From contig JAPKMP010000005.1 in the NCBI GenBank assembly GCA_026645935.1, positions 124,001 to 188,000 on the forward strand: DNA of 64,000 nucleotides. Direction: 5' to 3'. Source of the stretch: Candidatus Villigracilaceae bacterium (lineage in GTDB: Bacteria; Chloroflexota; Anaerolineae; Anaerolineales; Villigracilaceae). Positions within the stretch are counted from its first letter, which is position 1. Each line of letters opens with the position of its first letter. Below are positions 27,862 to 55,220 of this stretch, piece after piece. The position numbers were made by a program, and so were the translations under genes. The notes under the pieces are model-generated. The model was given only the letters and a program-made list of their open reading frames with translations. It was not told the DNA's origin and made no database searches.

Positions 27862-29364
27862 TCAGCCTCCCAAATAATCCAATGACGATGGATCGGGCGC
27901 AGGCAGGAGGATGGTCTGCCCAGGCAGGAGTTGATCGGTCATATTCAATTGATTCGCACCTGCGAGAGCTTCAGGAGGTATCTTCCAGTCGAACGCGATG
28001 GTTTCGACGGTTTCGCCCGTCCGCACCGTATATTCACGGGCTTGCCCTTCAAGATGATAGGTTTGCCATTTCCATCGGAAGACATCGAAGCCCATCACGC
28101 CGGTGCGCCCGTTTTCGTAACTATTCCATTCCTTGTTGATCACACCATTGATGAGATCGCCGGGAGTGTACAGGGTGATTTCGCTGATAAAACAATCGTA
28201 AGTGGGTAGATTCTGGATCATATTGCTTATGCTGATCCGGGCATTGTTCTCATCCACGCCTGCCACCAGGAAGATGTGGTCGAAGCGTTCGTCTCCGCTC
28301 TGGTAGAGCGTCGAATACGAATAAAGGATATCTCCCGTATACAGGTTCCCATTGCTGGCGAAATCGTAACCGGGCATGGGCGTATCGGTATGGAATACGT
28401 CGTAGGTTTCAGGGTCAAAGCCAAGCCAGGGGCGTCCGTTCCATTTCGGGTTGGCTGCGGTGAAGATGGAGGCGTTCGCATACCAGTCCCCGATGCGGTA
28501 GGGGAAGCTGTTCGAATCCTTCATGATCGTCCACGCGAGGGGTCCGCACATGGATGAGGCATCCCAGAATCCAATCTCTTCCTGAGAGATCCGGTTCGCT
28601 TCCTGGCAATTGGAGGCAAGATATTGCCGCCCGGCGGCGAGGTAATCGGGGAAACGCCAGTCAAAGTCGAACATCTCTTGAAGGGTTTCATTGCTGACAT
28701 ATCCCTGGTCGATGACCCAATGGCAGGGTAGTTTTTTGAGAATGGGAACGATCGTTTCATCCTGGGGGTTGCCGCCTTTTTGCCAGTAGGCGGTCACATA
28801 CTCAGCCCATGAAGACTCGAGCACTCCCGGCACCATGGGGACCGCAAGCAGGCGCAAACCGTTTACATTCTTTCTGAGCCAGACCGCAAAGCCGTTTGTC
28901 AGGAATGTGGTGACAAGCCGGTCCGCCCGGTAAGTGAGCGGATACTGGTACATTTCGATCCTGAATTCGTAAACGAACGGGTCGTCTGTTACGTTCAACA
29001 TTGTGCCAAGCGGACCGTTCCAGATATAGTTTTCACGAAGGTCTTTCAGGGTGATCTCATTGCCAAGGTCTGCCTGGACTTTTGCAAGCAATTCATCAGG
29101 AGTCAGGTTGGGCGCAGAAGGGGAACATCCCGCCGGGTTTCCGAAAGCATAGATGTGTAATTCGGTCTCGTCTTCGAGGAACGAGGCGGACGTGTTTTCT
29201 TCCACAGAATTCGTGAAGGGCGATTCCGTTCGAGTGTCGATCCTCTGATCGGCGACTAAAATGACTTCATCCACTAAGGTGGAATTTTTCGCCGAGTTCG
29301 TAAATAAATCGAACGAACCCAGGAGCAGGCTCAGTAAAATGACCGAGAGTGATAGGATTTTCAT
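27862..29364 (-). CDS. Secreted protein with C-terminal LysM domain; possible Cys-peptidase-like core
   Basis: Signal-like N-terminus MKILSLSVILLSLLLGSF; C-terminal YTVRTGETVETIAFDWKIPPEALAGANQLNMTDQLLPGQTILLP (LysM); SSMCGPLAWTIM. Confidence 0.6.
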   Translation of the reverse strand: MKILSLSVILLSLLLGSFDLFTNSAKNSTLVDEVILVADQRIDTRTESPFTNSVEENTSASFLEDETELHIYAFGNPAGCSPSAPNLTPDELLAKVQADLGNEITLKDLRENYIWNGPLGTMLNVTDDPFVYEFRIEMYQYPLTYRADRLVTTFLTNGFAVWLRKNVNGLRLLAVPMVPGVLESSWAEYVTAYWQKGGNPQDETIVPILKKLPCHWVIDQGYVSNETLQEMFDFDWRFPDYLAAGRQYLASNCQEANRISQEEIGFWDASSMCGPLAWTIMKDSNSFPYRIGDWYANASIFTAANPKWNGRPWLGFDPETYDVFHTDTPMPGYDFASNGNLYTGDILYSYSTLYQSGDERFDHIFLVAGVDENNARISISNMIQNLPTYDCFISEITLYTPGDLINGVINKEWNSYENGRTGVMGFDVFRWKWQTYHLEGQAREYTVRTGETVETIAFDWKIPPEALAGANQLNMTDQLLPGQTILLPAPDPSSLDYLGG

Positions 29365-29479
29365 GGCATTCCTCTTTCAACAAATAAAAGTTTCCAACAG
29401 CGGGTCCCCAGGTACTTTTGTCTGGAATGCCAGATGCGCGAAGAGAATCGTGGTTTGCGCAATCCGTTCATTTGACTTT

Positions 29480-29573
29480 CGGTAACCTGGCAATCATTGG
29501 CATGTTTCATGCCTTTAGACCCATGGCTTTGCGTCCCTGCCTTTCAGCAGGTTTGCCGTTATCGTGTGTCTCT
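29480..29573 (-). ncRNA. c-di-GMP-I (GEMM-I) riboswitch aptamer, gene-proximal copy
   Basis: Minus strand: GATAACGGCAAACCTGCTGAAAGGCAGGGACGCAAAGCCATGGGTCTAAAGGCATGAAACATGCCAATGATTGCCAGGTTACCG. GAAA tetraloop, GGGACGCAAAGCC core, CTAAAGG receptor-like segment, GGTTACCG end. Confidence 0.85.
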
Positions 29574-29593
29574 TCGTAAGGTGCGGTTAACAA

Positions 29594-29622
29594 TAAAAGG
29601 CTTGGACACTATGCCAAGCCTT
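29594..29622 (-). terminator. Intrinsic terminator-like hairpin between the two aptamers
   Basis: Minus strand: AAGGCTTGG-CATAGTGT-CCAAGCCTTTTATTG. Confidence 0.65.
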
Positions 29623-29682
29623 AAGTTCTCCGTTGAGAGACGGTTCGAATCATGCGACAGGATGCACCTGCCCAAGAGATTC

Positions 29683-29782
29683 GGTGACGTTCGGCGGCTT
29701 GGCGATCATAGGCATTTGCATGCCTTTAGACCCATAGCTTTGCGTCCCCGCCTTTCGGCGGGTTTGCCATTATCGGTGTCTT
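29683..29782 (-). ncRNA. c-di-GMP-I (GEMM-I) riboswitch aptamer, distal copy
   Basis: Minus strand: GATAATGGCAAACCCGCCGAAAGGCGGGGACGCAAAGCTATGGGTCTAAAGGCATGCAAATGCCTATGATCGCC. Same core with compensatory stem changes versus the proximal copy; the 3' end is less canonical. Confidence 0.8.
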
Positions 29783-31619: not shown

Positions 31620-34600
31620 TCATGGATTTAGTTCCGGCATTTCATCCAACATGCGCATGAATTCATCCACCACCCGCGGGTCGAAATATTTGCCCGATTG
31701 CTCGAGAATGTGTTCGCGGGTGCGTTCCACAGACCATTTTTCCCGGTAGGGACGATCCGAACGCAAGGCATCCCAGACGTCCACGACAGCGAAGAGGCGC
31801 GCAGCGAGGGGAATCTGTTCTGCCTTCAACTTGCGCGGATATCCGCTTCCATCCCACTTTTCATGATGAGCGAAGGGAATATCCAGCGCAGGATGCAAAT
31901 AGTTGATGGGCAGCAGCATTTCATAAGCATATCTTGGATGCTGGCGCATGACCTCCCATTCTTCGTCGGTCAACTTGGCGGGTTTGAGAAGGATGCTGTC
32001 GGGAACGCCCAGTTTGCCGATGTCGTGCAGTAAGGCGCCGCGCCGTATGTGGACCAGTTCGCGCGCATCGACGCCCATTCGTTCCGCCAATCGCGTGGTG
32101 AGTTCGGTCACCCGCTGCGTGTGTCCCTCCGTCTCCTTGTCGCGCAGGTCCATTGCGCGCGACCAACCGGCGATCGTGGCATCGTACGCCATGGCAAGTT
32201 CCTGGTTTGAACGCTGCATGCTTTCGAATAGCTCTGCGTTATCCACTGCAATGGCTGCCTGCCCGCCGAGTGTCTCCAGATAATTCATCCAGTCCGGGTC
32301 GGGGTGCAGAGGCGTGCGGTTGAAAATCTCCAGCACTCCTTTCAGCGCTCCTTTGGCAAGCAGGGGCACCCCGAAGTATTCCACAAACCCCTCTCCTTTA
32401 AGCAGGGGTGATCGTATAAATTCATCTTCCATCGCCCGCAAGTTGGGGATATGTAATATTTTCTGCTGCAAACCAACCTTCCCAGCCAGACCCTGCCCCA
32501 ACTTCAGGCGCGATCGCCGGATATTTGTTGTACGAAAACCTTTCCCTGCGACATATTCCAATGACATGCCAACCGGATTTATCAAGAGCACGTCGGCGGC
32601 GTCCACCTCCAATTGCGAGACGACTTCCTTCAACAATACCTCCAGCGAGAGACGCATGTCGAAGCTCGAACCGATGGTGCGGTCGATATCGTTCAAGGCC
32701 GTGATGCGTCTGAGTTGCACCTCCACCTTCGATTCGGCCTGTTTGCGCAGGAGGATGGCGGTCATCTGGCGGCTGATGGGAAGCATGCGCTGCAGGTCTT
32801 CCTCGGTAAACCGCTTGGCGCTCGAAAAATCCATCAGCCCGATGGTCTGGCCCGAGGTGACCAACGGAATGGTTATGGTCGAGCGAATGTTCAACAGGTG
32901 GAAGATGCGTGGAATGATGGCGCGGATGGGAGCGCGCAGCACATTCGGAAGGAAGGTTGTCTCGGTGAATTCGAGCATCCATCTTTGGATCTCCGATGGG
33001 TCGTCAGTAACAATACCTTCGGTATGGGAAAGCACATACTGGGTGTAGCTTCCCTCGCGGATCGGCAGGCGGATCTTTGGAATCGAAACACCGATGAAAT
33101 CCTCGATCTTCTGCCTGGTCTCGCTGGACAGCGTTTCGTTTTGCATATCAAGGTACTCCCCATCCGGCGTGATCAGGTAAATCGCGATATCCTCGCAATC
33201 GAACATGCTGAAGGCTTGCTGTGTAAAGAGGTTCGTAATGGTTTCGACCGATTCACCGCGGTTGGCGGCTTCGTTCAGGGTGGTGATAAGGGTCAGGTCC
33301 TGGGTGCGCCGGCGGATTTCCAGTTCCGCCTGTTTGCGCTCGGTGATGTCCTGAACCTGGCTGATGAAATACAGCGGTTCGCCATCCAAACCCCGCACGA
33401 GCGAAACGCTGAGCAATACCCAAACGGTATGTCCCATCTTATGGAAGTACCTTTTCTCCATCTGGTACGTCTGGGTCTCTCCTACCAGCGTCCGGCGCAC
33501 GTAATCGAGATCGGTTTCCAGGTCGTCGGGATGCGTGATGTCCTGGAAGGTTTTGACCAGCAATTCGTTCGCGGGGTAGCCGACAATATCGCACATGGCG
33601 CGGTTGACTCGCAGCCAGCGTCCCTCAGGCGAAACGAGCGCCATGCCGATAGATGCATACTCGAAGGCGCTGTAGAAACGTTGTTCGCTCTCTTGCAGCG
33701 CATCCTCCGCCTGTTTACGGTGGGTAATGTCGTTGATCACCGCAAGGAAGGCGCGCTCTTTCCCGGTTTCGACCAATTGCAAATGGACGTCCGCCGGATA
33801 TAAACTTCCGTCGGCGCGGCGGTGGGCGGTTTCAAAGTTGAGGATGGGCTTCTCACCCCGAAGCAGTGGTGCGATCGTTTCACGGAAAGACGCCTCGGTA
33901 AACTCCGGTTTAAGGTCGACCGGTGTTATCTTCTTCAAGTCCTCGAGAGAATATCCCAGGTTGAGAAGCGCGCCGCTGTTGGCATATTCGAACCTCAGGC
34001 TGTCCGGGTCGAAGATATATATTTCGTTCAGGCTGGCTTCCAGCACATTCGACAGCCGCCCGCGCGCCATCTCCGCCTGTTTGCGCTTGGTGACGTCCAT
34101 GGTGGTGAAGATGATCCGCGAATAGTCCTGTTCGTGGCCCGTGAAAACCGTCCAAGCCATGTTGACATCGATGAACCTGCCTGCCATCGTTTTATCGCGT
34201 CCCTCCCATGAGCTTGCAGTCTTGCCCTCCGAAATGGCCACCAGATAACCATAACTTGTGGATGATTCCTCCGAGCCCAGCGAGTGTACGATGAAGCGGA
34301 TCAAATCCTCCTTGTTTTCCGCATCGTACATCTCGAGGGCGGCTTTGTTCAGATCCAAAATCCGGGTCATCCGCCCGAAGCGAAGCACTTCCTGCGGGTG
34401 CGATTTGAAATAGTGTTGGAAATCGGTGATTCCCTCTTCTTTCAATTTGTCGATATTTACCTTTATTTGAGAGAAATCCTCCTCCCAGACAGCGATCGGG
34501 ACGTCCTCGAACAGGACGCGATAGCGCTGCTCCGATTCCAACAAAGCCTTCTCTGCGTGTTTACGTTCGGTGATGTCCAAGGTCGTCACGATCACCCGGG

Positions 34601-35858
34601 AATAGTCCTTTTCATGGCCGGGGAAAACCGACCAACTCAGATTGATCTGGATCGGCCTGCCGGTCAGGGTTTCATCGTAGCCCTCCCAACTTCGGCTTGT
34701 CCTGCCTTCCCCGATTGCGACCAGGTCTTCGGGAGCATTCTCCAATTCGCCTTTGCTGTTGGTCTGACGTGTAAGGTTGAGCAACTCCTCCCTGCTGTTC
34801 GCTTCGAACATTTTCACGGCCGTGTTGTTCACGTCTATGACGCGGATCATCTGCTCACAGCGAATCACTTCTTCAGGATGGGAGGCGAAATAGCCGCGCA
34901 GGTCAGTGACGCCCTGTTCCTTCAAAGAATCCAGATACTCCTTCACCTCCGAAAAATCCTCCTCCCAAATGGCGATCGGGACATCCTCGAACAGGGCACG
35001 GAAACGCGTCTCGCTCGTCCGCAGGGATTCATTCACTTCCAACCGCTCGGTGATATCGCGCAATATGGCGGTGTAGATTTTCCTGCCGCCAACCTCCGCC
35101 TGTGAGATGGATATTTCCGCAGGAAATTCCACGCCGTCGGATCGCATGCAGGTAAGCTGTCCAAGCTTCCCCATCGCGCGCCGGGTCTGATTGGTCTGCC
35201 CAAAGACATGGATATGCCTCCGATGCGCCTCGCGGAATCTTTCCGGAATGAACCGGTCCAGCGGCTGACCCATCGCCTCGACCGCCGGGCAGCCGAACAT
35301 CAATTCCGCAGCCGGGTTGAAGAGGATGATGCGCTGGTCTTCATCCAGCGAGAGGATGGCGTCCATTGCCGTCTCCACCAGGCTGGAAATTTGAGCCTGG
35401 CTCTCGCGCAGTTTTTCATCCGTCCGCTTGCGTTCAGTGACATCGCGGCTGATGCAGATGAACCCGATGGGGTTCCCCGCCTCGTTTCGGACCACCGAAA
35501 CCGAAGACCAGACCCAGATGCGCACCCCGTCTTTGCGGACCCTTGTCACTTCGCCCGACCATTTTCCCATCCGCCGCGCTATGGTCAACGGATTGCTTTT
35601 TCCATTTACGGTTGGCTTGGTCTTAAGGAGTCTATTGAAGTTCTTCCCAACCGCCTCTTCCGCCTTCCAGCCAAAGGTATGCTCAGCCGCCGCATTCCAA
35701 CCAATGATGGTAAAACGGTTATTCAAGGCGATCATCGCATCGGGGATGTGATGTGCCATATTAACAATAAAAGTGGAATGGTCTCCGTGAGATGCCAAAT
35801 CCTTTTTAAAGCTTCTCGCCGGTTTCACGCTGGTCTTGATCTTCGATCTCGCGTTCAT
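31620..35858 (-). CDS. Multi-PAS/GAF sensor with C-terminal HD-GYP domain
   Basis: Repeated PAS/PAC motifs ([14 protein letters not shown]), GAF region, HD-GYP motifs [12 protein letters not shown] and [11 protein letters not shown]. Confidence 0.9.
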
Positions 35859-50573: not shown

Positions 50574-50669
50574 GACTCATCCAGAGAGGCTGAGGGACCG
50601 ACCCGATGAAGCCTCGGCAACCGTTCAAGCGGTGCCAATTTCGGCAGACAACTGTCTGGGAGATGAGAG
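50574..50669 (+). ncRNA. SAM-I (S-box) riboswitch aptamer
   Basis: CTCATCCAGAGAGGCTGAGGGACCGACCCGATGAAGCCTCGGCAACCGTTCAAGCGGTGCCAATTTCGGCAGACAACTGTCTGGGAGATGAG; P1 CTCATC/GATGAG closes. Confidence 0.95.
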
Positions 50670-51224: not shown

Positions 51225-54200
51225 ATGACCCAACGCAAATACACCAACCGCCGTTACCTCGACGCCCTCGAAAAGAAAGTACTTGTCTTCGATGGCGCAA
51301 TGGGAACGAGCCTGCAAGTGCAAAACCTGACTGCCGAACATTTCGGCGGCGAGCAATACAACGGCTGCAACGACTACCTCGTCATCTCGTATCCGCAAGC
51401 CGTGGAAAAAGTCCATCGCTCGTTCCTCGAAGTCGGCGTGGATGTGCTCGAGACGGACACCTTCCGCTCCAACCGCATCACGATGGCTGAATATAAATTG
51501 CAGGATCGCGTGATTGAACTTAATGAAACCGCGGCAAGTCTTGCGCGTCGGCTTGCTGATGAATATGCCGGGAAGACAGGTCAGCCTCGTTTTGTTGCAG
51601 GTTCGATTGGACCTTCGGGCAAACTTCCCTCCACCAACGACCCCGAACTGTCCAACGTCAGTTTTGATGAATTGGTTGATACCTTCCGCGAGCAGGCAGT
51701 CGGTCTGATTCGCGGCGGCGTGGATGTGCTGCTCATCGAAACCTCGCAGGACATTCTCGAAGTCAAAGCCGCCATCATCGGTCTGCACAAAGCCATGGAT
51801 GAGACTCAGGTCTGGTTGCCGATCCAGGCTCAGGTCACGCTTGATACGACCGGTCGCATGTTGCTCGGCACCGATATTAATGCATCCCTCGCCATCCTTG
51901 AAGGCATGGGCATCGACATCATCGGTCTCAACTGCTCCACCGGACCCGAGCACATGCGCGAGCCCATCCGCATCCTCGGCGAAAATTCCACGCTGCCCGT
52001 TTCGTGCATCCCCAACGCCGGTCTGCCGCTCAACGTGGATGGTCAAGCCGTGTATCCGCTCGAGCCCGAGCCGTTCGCCAACGACCTCTACGAGTTTGTG
52101 ACCAAGCACAACATTTCGATTGTGGGCGGATGTTGTGGCACGACGCCTGAACATCTTAAACAGCTGATTCAAAAACTGGATGCGCATCCTCATCCCAAGC
52201 GACCGGGTCAATCTACGCCTCAGCTTGCCTCTGCCATGTCAGCGATCGCCATGCGACAGGATCCGCCCCCCACCCTGCTCGGCGAGCGCCTCAACGCGCA
52301 AGGCTCGCGCAAGTTCAAACGGCTCCTGCTCGAAGAAGATTACGATGGAATTTTGGAGATCGCCCGCGAGCAAGTGGACTTCGGCGCGCACGCCCTCGAC
52401 ATCTCCTGCGCCGTCACCGAACGCCCCGACGAAGCCGAACTCATGCGCAAGGTCGTCAAGAAACTCGAGATGGGCGTGGATGTGCCATTGGTCATTGACT
52501 CCACTGAACTCGACGTTCTCGAAATCGCATTGAAGACCGCACCCGGACGTTGTCTCATCAACTCGACCCATCTCGAATCGGGTCGCGACAAAGCCGACAA
52601 GATTTTCAAACTCGCCAAAGACCATAATGCCGCAGTCATCGTATTGACCATTGACGAAAACGGCATGGCAAAGACCCGCGAAAAAAAACTCGAGGTCGCC
52701 AAACGCATCTACGACATCGCCGTCAACGACCACGGACTCAAGCCCGAAGATCTGGTCTATGATGCCTTGACCTTCACCCTCGCCACTGGCGACCAGGAAT
52801 TTATCGAATCCGCCATCGAAACCATCGAAGGAATTCGCCTCATCAAGCAGAATTTACCCGGCGTGATGGCATCTCTCGGCGTGAGCAACCTGTCGTTCGG
52901 TTTTGCGCCGCACGCCCGCCCGGTCTTGAACTCGGTCATGCTCTATCACTGCGTGCAGGCTGGCTTAGACATGGCAATCGTGAATCCTGCCCACGTCACG
53001 GCGTATCCTGACATTTCACAGGAAGAAAAAGACCTCGCTGAAGATTTGATCTTCAACCGGCGTGCAGACTCATTGCAGCGCTACATCGAACACTACGAAA
53101 AGGTCACCCCCACCACCGAAGCGACGCTCGCCGACCCCACCGAAGGCATGACCCCCGAACAACGCCTGCACTGGAAGATCGTCCACCGCAAGAAAGACGG
53201 CGTTGAGGCGGATATTGATGAGATCATCCATCGTGGCATATCCCCTCTCCCCTCGGGAGAGGGCAGGGTGAGGGAGAAGGTTTTCAGCTCAAATCCTCCT
53301 GTCCCAGATGCCTTACTGGAGCGTGTTCGTGAACTGAGCCGAGAAGCAACTGATGCTGAACAGTTAATATGGAAACTGCTTCGCAACCGCGGAGTTCATG
53401 ATGCGAAATTTCGACGACAGCATCCAATTGCCGGTTATATTCTCGACTTTTATTGTCACGAAGCTAAACTGGCAATTGAGCTGGATGGAAGTGGTCATCT
53501 GGAAGATGGCCAAGCAAAATATGACGATGAACGCACAAGGATTTTGAATGAACAAGGTATTCGAGTTTTAAGATTTTGGAACAGCGATGTTTTGAAAAAC
53601 ACAGAGTCTGTCTTGAACGAAATTTGGATGGCTCTGGAAGAGGCTTCTGCCACCTCCCTCATCCCCAACCCTTCCCCCGAGGGGGGAAGGGAGTCAGAGT
53701 TCCCCTCTCCTTCGGGAGAGGGGTTAGGGGTGAGGGCACGGCAGCACGAAACCGCCGTCCACACCCTGAACAACGTCCTGCTCCCCGCCATGAAAGAAGT
53801 CGGCGACAAGTTCGGCGCGGGTGAATTGATCCTGCCCTTCGTGCTCCAATCCGCCGAAGTGATGAAGAAGACGGTCGCCCATCTCGAGAATTATCTCGAA
53901 AAGATGGAAGGCGTGACCAAAGGCACAGTCGTGATTGCGACAGTCTATGGTGACGTGCATGATATTGGCAAGAACCTCGTCAAAACGATTCTCGCCAACA
54001 ACGGCTACACCGTCATTGATCTCGGCAAGCAGGTCCCTGCAGAGACGATCATCACCAAGGCTGTCGAAGCCAATGCGACAGCGATTGGACTCTCTGCGTT
54101 ACTTGTGTCAACGTCAAAGCAAATGCCGCTCATCGTCAACGAACTCCATCGCCGCGGACACAAGATCCCCGTACTCATCGGTGGTGCCGCGATCAACCGT

Positions 54201-55220
54201 CGCTTCGGCAGGCGCATCCTCCAAACCGAAGGCGGCGATTTCTACGATCCCGGCGTCTTCTACTGCAAAGATGCCTTTGAAGGTCTTGAAACGATGGACA
54301 TCCTAATCAACGACGAGAAGCGCCCCGAACTCCTTGCCAAAACGGTCAAGGAATCGGAAATGGAATTAGGTCGCGCAAACACAAAGGTTGTCGAACGTTT
54401 AAACGTTCAACGTTCCAACATTACTCCTGCTCCCTTAACCCTCCCACCCTCCAAATTCGGAATGCGCGTCGTCAAAAACATGCCGCTGGAGATCGTCTTC
54501 ACGCATCTCAACATCAATGAGCTGTATCGTCTTTCCTGGGGCGCCAAGAACACCCACGGCGAGGAATGGGAGAAGCTAAAAGCCGAATTCGACGCGCGCC
54601 TGCTCCGGATGAAGAAAGAAGCGCTGCGCGAGAAGTGGCTGAATCCACAGGGCGTGTACGGGCTCTTCCCCGCACAATCCGAAGGTGATGACCTGATCGT
54701 CTACAATCCCGAAAATCTCGACCAGGTGTTGACGCGGTTCTCCTTCCCGCGCCAGCCGTACGATGAACATCTCTGCCTCGCGGACTATTACGCTTCGGTT
54801 GAGTTCGGCCAGATGGATGTGGTTGCCTTCCAGGTGGTCACGGTTGGGCAGGCCGCCAGCGATCGTTTCGACAAACTGCAAGCCGCGCACGATTACACCG
54901 AAGCCTATTTCACCCACGGACTCGGCGTCCAAACCGCCGAAGCCACTGCCAACTATTTGCACGAACACCTGCGCCGCGAGATGGGCATCCCCGAGAATCA
55001 AGGCAAACGCTACTCGTGGGGCTACCCCGCCATCCCTGAGTTGGAGGATCATCAGAAGATCTTCGAATTGCTGCCAGCCGTCACTCAGGAATTGGGCATG
55101 AGCCTCAGCCCGTCATACCAGTTGATCCCCGAACAATCCACCGCGGCGATCATCGTCCATCACCCCAAAGCCAAGTATTACTCGGTTAGTGAAAGCCGCG
55201 TCGAGCAGTTGATGAAATGA
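51225..55220 (+). CDS. metH: Cobalamin-dependent methionine synthase with an in-frame inserted DUF559-like domain
   Basis: Homocysteine domain GGCCGTTPEH; pterin-binding GERLNAQGSRKF; B12-binding VYGDVHDIGKNLV; C-terminal activation-domain-like region. About 169-codon insert at 53235-53741. Confidence 0.93.
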   Translation: MTQRKYTNRRYLDALEKKVLVFDGAMGTSLQVQNLTAEHFGGEQYNGCNDYLVISYPQAVEKVHRSFLEVGVDVLETDTFRSNRITMAEYKLQDRVIELNETAASLARRLADEYAGKTGQPRFVAGSIGPSGKLPSTNDPELSNVSFDELVDTFREQAVGLIRGGVDVLLIETSQDILEVKAAIIGLHKAMDETQVWLPIQAQVTLDTTGRMLLGTDINASLAILEGMGIDIIGLNCSTGPEHMREPIRILGENSTLPVSCIPNAGLPLNVDGQAVYPLEPEPFANDLYEFVTKHNISIVGGCCGTTPEHLKQLIQKLDAHPHPKRPGQSTPQLASAMSAIAMRQDPPPTLLGERLNAQGSRKFKRLLLEEDYDGILEIAREQVDFGAHALDISCAVTERPDEAELMRKVVKKLEMGVDVPLVIDSTELDVLEIALKTAPGRCLINSTHLESGRDKADKIFKLAKDHNAAVIVLTIDENGMAKTREKKLEVAKRIYDIAVNDHGLKPEDLVYDALTFTLATGDQEFIESAIETIEGIRLIKQNLPGVMASLGVSNLSFGFAPHARPVLNSVMLYHCVQAGLDMAIVNPAHVTAYPDISQEEKDLAEDLIFNRRADSLQRYIEHYEKVTPTTEATLADPTEGMTPEQRLHWKIVHRKKDGVEADIDEIIHRGISPLPSGEGRVREKVFSSNPPVPDALLERVRELSREATDAEQLIWKLLRNRGVHDAKFRRQHPIAGYILDFYCHEAKLAIELDGSGHLEDGQAKYDDERTRILNEQGIRVLRFWNSDVLKNTESVLNEIWMALEEASATSLIPNPSPEGGRESEFPSPSGEGLGVRARQHETAVHTLNNVLLPAMKEVGDKFGAGELILPFVLQSAEVMKKTVAHLENYLEKMEGVTKGTVVIATVYGDVHDIGKNLVKTILANNGYTVIDLGKQVPAETIITKAVEANATAIGLSALLVSTSKQMPLIVNELHRRGHKIPVLIGGAAINRRFGRRILQTEGGDFYDPGVFYCKDAFEGLETMDILINDEKRPELLAKTVKESEMELGRANTKVVERLNVQRSNITPAPLTLPPSKFGMRVVKNMPLEIVFTHLNINELYRLSWGAKNTHGEEWEKLKAEFDARLLRMKKEALREKWLNPQGVYGLFPAQSEGDDLIVYNPENLDQVLTRFSFPRQPYDEHLCLADYYASVEFGQMDVVAFQVVTVGQAASDRFDKLQAAHDYTEAYFTHGLGVQTAEATANYLHEHLRREMGIPENQGKRYSWGYPAIPELEDHQKIFELLPAVTQELGMSLSPSYQLIPEQSTAAIIVHHPKAKYYSVSESRVEQLMK
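53243..53275. repeat. Left palindromic repeat of the metH insertion
   Basis: CCCTCTCCC-CTC-GGGAGAGGG-CAGGGTGAGGG. Confidence 0.8.
53653..53737. repeat. Right composite inverted repeat of the metH insertion
   Basis: CTCCCTCATCCCCAACCCTTCCCCCGAGGGGGGAAGGG…CCCCTCTCCTTCGGGAGAGGGGTTAGGGGTGAGGG; two hairpins with complementary outer arms. Confidence 0.8.

Follow-up and report, generated by a model that had tools for sequence, protein, structure and literature searches.

The leader of a secreted LysM protein gene in the window, the 64,000-nucleotide stretch of Candidatus Villigracilaceae DNA analysed here, probably contains a series of two complete c-di-GMP-I riboswitches, the first acting on transcription and the second on translation, with both turning expression off when c-di-GMP is bound. 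This two-level reading follows from a terminator in the linker between the aptamers, the lack of a comparable second terminator, and a stem at the ribosome-binding site. Each aptamer has its own downstream platform, a terminator/antiterminator for aptamer 1 and the ribosome-site stem, with a weakly supported link, for aptamer 2 (Table 1).

Table 1. Features of the tandem riboswitch leader and of the genes on either side of it
Feature	Position in window	Strand	Score or remark
PAS/GAF sensor protein ending in HD-GYP domain, upstream of tandem	31620-35858	-	motif
Aptamer 1, c-di-GMP-I (RF01051)	29690..29778	-	86.6 bits, E 9.8e-16
Aptamer 1 3′ strand GCCAAGCC, proposed antiterminator strand	29696..29703	-	8 bp perfect complement of terminator 5′ arm
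Intrinsic terminator between aptamers, AAGGCTTGG-CATAGTGT-CCAAGCCTT then TTATTGTT	29597..29622	-	100% identical in G032
Terminator 5′ arm GGCTTGGC, common to antiterminator	29620-29613	-	
Aptamer 2, c-di-GMP-I (RF01051)	29478..29567	-	88.0 bits, E 4.5e-16
Aptamer 2 3′ strand GCCAGGTTAC, proposed anti-sequester strand	29482..29491	-	pairing with GTACCTGG weak on window sequence alone
Anti-ribosome-site strand GGCATTCC	29424..29431	-	8 bp with GGAATGCC
Weak hairpin AAAAGT...ACTTTT, then U-rich sequence	29419-29386	-	
GTACCTGG, partner of aptamer 2 3′ strand, 5′ side of weak hairpin	29408..29415	-	
GGAATGCC, overlaps ribosome-binding site (AAAGAGG), ends at ATG	29365..29372	-	
Controlled gene, secreted 500-aa protein, C-terminal LysM	27862..29364	-	PF01476 E 2.2e-8

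A cmscan search against all Rfam families returned exactly two RF01051 matches on the minus strand, each covering the full length of the model (1-87/87) and scoring far above its curated cut-off of 35 bits. Together with the LysM match, this Infernal check, which the first-pass annotation had proposed, bears out its claim of tandem c-di-GMP-I aptamers upstream of a LysM gene. The boundaries given there (29683-29782 and 29480-29573) fell on the right sites with edges a few bases off those of cmscan, and the count of 46/50 core positions shared between the aptamers was exact on recount. Differences in the GAAA-capped stem had been called compensatory; when the two stems are compared (CCCGCC/GGCGGG vs CCUGCU/GGCAGG), this applies to the two-sided change of C:G to U:A and not to the one-sided change of C:G to U.G. 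The G reported directly before CAAACC is present in aptamers 1 and 2, so the cGAMP-type A at position 20 is absent from both, in the sequence and in the alignment, and the earlier argument for c-di-GMP rather than cGAMP is sound as far as sequence can indicate. The positions that we take to be the c-di-GMP contacts (G20, A47 and C92 in Vc2 numbering) correspond in the cmscan alignments of both aptamers to the G before CAAACC, the second A of GCAAAG and the first C of CCGAA, and we infer that c-di-GMP is the ligand of both.

The first-pass annotation had rightly drawn the two aptamers as pointing at the 29364-27862 gene, and it missed the terminator between them, the pairing of aptamer 1 with that terminator, and the ribosome-site stem. 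The 3′ strand of aptamer 1 can form a duplex with the 5′ arm of the terminator at −17.3 kcal/mol, a value equalled by 0.25% of dinucleotide-shuffled linkers. As the terminator 5′ arm and the aptamer 1 strand are shared in this way, the design is that of an OFF switch, and aptamer 1 with its linker apparently has the layout of a transcriptional one, with a polarity deduced from the shared strands. When c-di-GMP is absent, GCCAAGCC would pair with the emerging 5′ arm GGCTTGGC and transcription would read through; when c-di-GMP is bound, GCCAAGCC would be kept inside aptamer 1, the terminator would form, and transcription would stop.

Comparison with related records (Anaerolineales or Chloroflexi assemblies) supports this pairing. 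In a set of 20 doublets, made up of the window, the related genome G032, and 18 relatives, a terminator hairpin follows aptamer 1 in all 20 linkers (scores 18.0-36.1), and a matching antiterminator pairing is present in every linker except that of L065. Across 23 loci, native combinations of aptamer 1 strand and linker pair more strongly than swapped combinations (−18.4 vs −16.8 kcal/mol; permutation p 5e-5). In addition, the pairing between aptamer 1 strand and terminator arm covaries across 22 loci, with one antiterminator column being G-C in 11 loci and A-U in 8, and with GCCAAGCC:GGCUUGGC, GCCAGGCC:GGCCUGGC and GCCAGACC:GGUCUGGC among the covarying pair variants.

Switching was judged by transcript-length-dependent folding in place of equilibrium folding. 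In the window, the antiterminator helix reached a probability of 1.0 once the 5′ arm had emerged, and in 14/16 loci, including the window, the probability was 0.93-1.0 for unliganded RNA with the 5′ arm just transcribed, the outliers being L070 (0.57) and L104 (0.0). Equilibrium folding was rejected as proof of switching, as the terminator is favoured at full length whether or not the aptamer is present: it prevails in most loci, and its probability in the window went from 0.84 to 0.97 when the aptamer was sequestered. Since full-length folding gives no clean switch, the OFF logic would depend on co-transcriptional folding, i.e., on a kinetic switch.

The second platform appears to be a stem between GGCATTCC and GGAATGCC with an energy of −16.3 kcal/mol in the window, where 0.5% of shuffles equal it; in each of the four sequences compared, this figure is at most 0.5%. 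In G430 and L104 (Candidatus Desulfolinea nitratireducens), the stem reads GACATTCC:GGAATGTC, with both sides of one base pair changed. An alternative partner is available to the aptamer 2 3′ strand (window, GTACCTGG; G430, GUAGCUGGC; L104, GGCUUGGU), and this pairing encloses the anti-ribosome-site strand. It exceeds shuffled expectation in G032, G430, and L104; the window helix taken alone is not significant, with 16% of shuffles equalling it. When the transcript was folded as it stands before the ribosome site is made, the anti-sequester pairing formed in the window, G032, and L104. With c-di-GMP absent, the aptamer 2 3′ strand and GTACCTGG would enclose GGCATTCC and leave the ribosome site open, and with c-di-GMP bound at aptamer 2, GGCATTCC would be released for pairing with GGAATGCC, which overlaps the ribosome-binding site, and translation would be blocked. 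Upon aptamer sequestration, predicted accessibility in the window went from 0.25 to 0.23 at the ribosome site and from 0.90 to 0.45 at the AUG, and predicted ribosome-site accessibility in G430 was unchanged. As these shifts are modest or absent, the ligand-dependent link that we infer between aptamer 2 and the ribosome-site stem is put forward as a hypothesis.

A distinctly less probable reading, with some weight of its own, is that both riboswitches are transcriptional, as in an ordinary pseudo-cooperative doublet, with the ribosome-site stem being constitutive and aptamer 2 acting on the weak hairpin at 29419-29386. This hairpin might be a degenerate or vestigial second terminator, which could put aptamer 2 in control of transcription as well; its 5′ side is the partner of the aptamer 2 3′ strand, repeating the design of the first platform, and the equivalent hairpin is stronger with a U-rich tail in L104 and long in G430. 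In the window, however, the hairpin is weak with its U-run partly within the stem, a scan that allowed loops of 3-12 nt detected no terminator downstream of aptamer 2, where no region of the 20 doublets scored above 15.4, and the ribosome-site stem covaries. For the preferred order of transcription then translation, anatomy and covariation speak in favour, and the possible weak second terminator and the small predicted ligand-dependent change in accessibility speak against.

The polarity of the leader could also be the reverse, with c-di-GMP raising expression, and an ON mode is often discussed in the literature for tandem c-di-GMP systems (PMC9481103, PMC12452182). We consider this improbable here, as the terminator lies ~70 nt past aptamer 1 and has no bases in common with it, so that a bound aptamer cannot block the terminator while an unbound 3′ strand can. 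With both switches reading as OFF, production of the secreted LysM cell-wall protein would be expected when c-di-GMP is low. A decayed, non-binding aptamer, leaving the pair to work as a single switch, is very unlikely: some orthologous genes do have one aptamer and two have none, but both window aptamers score >86 bits with ligand-contact positions kept, their G032 counterparts are 97% (aptamer 1) and 100% (aptamer 2) identical, and G430 and L104 keep both.

Orthologs of the LysM gene were found in 8/57 genomes of the genus. The doublet lies upstream of the ortholog in the window, G032, G430, and L104, the latter three having protein identities of 86%, 71%, and 47% (best segment), respectively; a single aptamer precedes the ortholog in G006, G023, G463, and L103, and none precedes it in G030 and G450. 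Between the window and G032, identity is 96-100% over the leader (29860 to 29435), 90% over the coding region, and 49% in the DNA upstream of 29860, and with leader identity above coding identity, the leader is more strongly constrained than its gene. A plasmid search with the leader gave just short aptamer-core matches in two plasmids.

The controlled gene had been annotated as encoding a secreted LysM protein, which agrees with the single LysM domain (PF01476) and the signal-peptide-like N terminus of its product. All of five orthologs compared keep Cys273 and His363, and a papain-like Cys-His identity is a guess from this motif, since the AlphaFold model built with five orthologs (mean pLDDT 40.8) was too poor for searching. 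A PDB sequence search gave a convincing match for the LysM part only, so that the case for an enzyme consists of the invariant residues. Upstream of the tandem, the sensor protein with the HD-GYP domain is, by its motif, likely a c-di-GMP phosphodiesterase; G032 and L103 likewise have HD-GYP-type genes upstream of the riboswitch, and 20 GGDEF matches were counted in the genome of the window.

The same linker terminator occurs in doublets at 18 related loci (L064-L078, L081, L085, and L087) upstream of secreted proteins, one of which was identified as a sortase by Pfam (PF04203); 17/18 are alike by sequence and L069 differs. The second platform in these doublets is a start-codon hairpin, GGAUGC:GCAUCC, which becomes GGGUGC:GCACCC in L076, and its anatomy again suggests translational control. 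We hold it to be about an even call that bi-mechanism c-di-GMP-I doublets, in which an OFF switch with a terminator precedes one acting at the start site, are a standard device of this Anaerolineales lineage, placed before at least two unrelated kinds of secreted cell-surface gene (LysM, and sortase-like at ~17 loci).

The same genome carries, outside the window, a run of three directly adjoining c-di-GMP-I aptamers with no linkers (G000:C13:23231-23497; L062:2232-2498, plus strand), scoring 52.7, 43.7, and 63.8 bits and with one terminator. A signature pattern search found arrays in 38/57 genomes of the genus, and some similar arrays have a diverged middle unit that the model misses. A promoter-like element that is conserved (TTGAAA followed by AATAAT) precedes the arrays, and a terminator closes them, for which no obvious pairing with aptamer 3 was seen by eye. 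On the upstream side, the arrays mostly adjoin members of a single conserved family that looks HlyD-like by eye, and the downstream genes vary (RuvB, MBOAT, response regulator, and others). The array is possibly a stand-alone RNA, the nearest precedent being the Bdellovibrio merRNA, which is massively expressed and was proposed as a c-di-GMP store (PMC3627812). A CrcZ sRNA match inside a related array was dismissed as chance (14.9 bits vs a cut-off of 95), and a protein C terminus was rejected as the explanation of the conserved TAGAACAnnTGAGTGATTG before the arrays, as most loci have no long upstream frame ending there. Another family of the order has two abutting c-di-GMP-I aptamers with a cobalamin riboswitch ~1 kb off (L063; G056:C13:147-324, minus strand). 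Elsewhere in the window, a SAM riboswitch (RF00162, 80.5 bits; 50574-50669, plus strand) lies ~550 nt upstream of a methionine-synthase-like open reading frame of 1331 aa (51225-55220, plus strand), in which an in-frame stretch resembling a DUF559-type nuclease by eye (RNRGVHDAKFRRQHPIAGYILDFYCHEAKLAIELDG...) sits between SPSGEG-type repeats, as though a mobile element had inserted in frame.

Tandem c-di-GMP-I riboswitches are well documented, with 347 doublets and 12 triplets, called pseudo-cooperative, in a 2022 survey (PMC9481103), and a 2025 survey found c-di-GMP riboswitches enriched among tandem arrangements (PMC12452182). Where tandem c-di-GMP systems are discussed as ON, transcription is taken to need both ligands (PMC9481103, PMC12452182), and mixed transcription/translation pairs should give more efficient control (PMC12452182). 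Like the Bacillus thuringiensis Bc3-5 triple (PMC4759541), the window leader holds several complete c-di-GMP-I riboswitches, from which a steeper, more digital response is expected; the Bc3-5 triple is described as pseudo-cooperative with multiple expression platforms, whereas the window has a terminator, then an apparent ribosome-site stem, both predicted OFF. The SAM-II/SAM-V and mixed SAM-II doublets (PMC9481103) share with its predicted design a first switch that stops transcription and a second that blocks ribosome access in response to one ligand, and the window differs in using c-di-GMP-I aptamers for both. The single c-di-GMP-I switches of G023 and L103 likewise place an aptamer and then a terminator, again with this antiterminator pairing, before the orthologous gene, but with one aptamer and with the terminator near the ATG. 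The 2022 survey describes bi-mechanism tandems solely for SAM and points out that tandem arrangements had not been evaluated comprehensively in this respect (PMC9481103), and the literature searched gave neither a description of a two-level tandem for the c-di-GMP sensor class nor a dedicated c-di-GMP riboswitch study in the phylum Chloroflexota. Given this state of the surveys, the window leader belongs to a known type of tandem, and its combination of mechanisms is probably new.

If the lineage-wide pattern is true, it would be the first same-class c-di-GMP case of a two-level tandem such as those described for SAM. Because aptamer and terminator arm covary in 22 loci, the mechanism lends itself to direct tests in vitro. 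If the two-level reading holds, one second messenger would check the gene twice, first at the polymerase finishing the message and then on messages already made, giving tight, re-closable OFF control of a secreted cell-wall protein.
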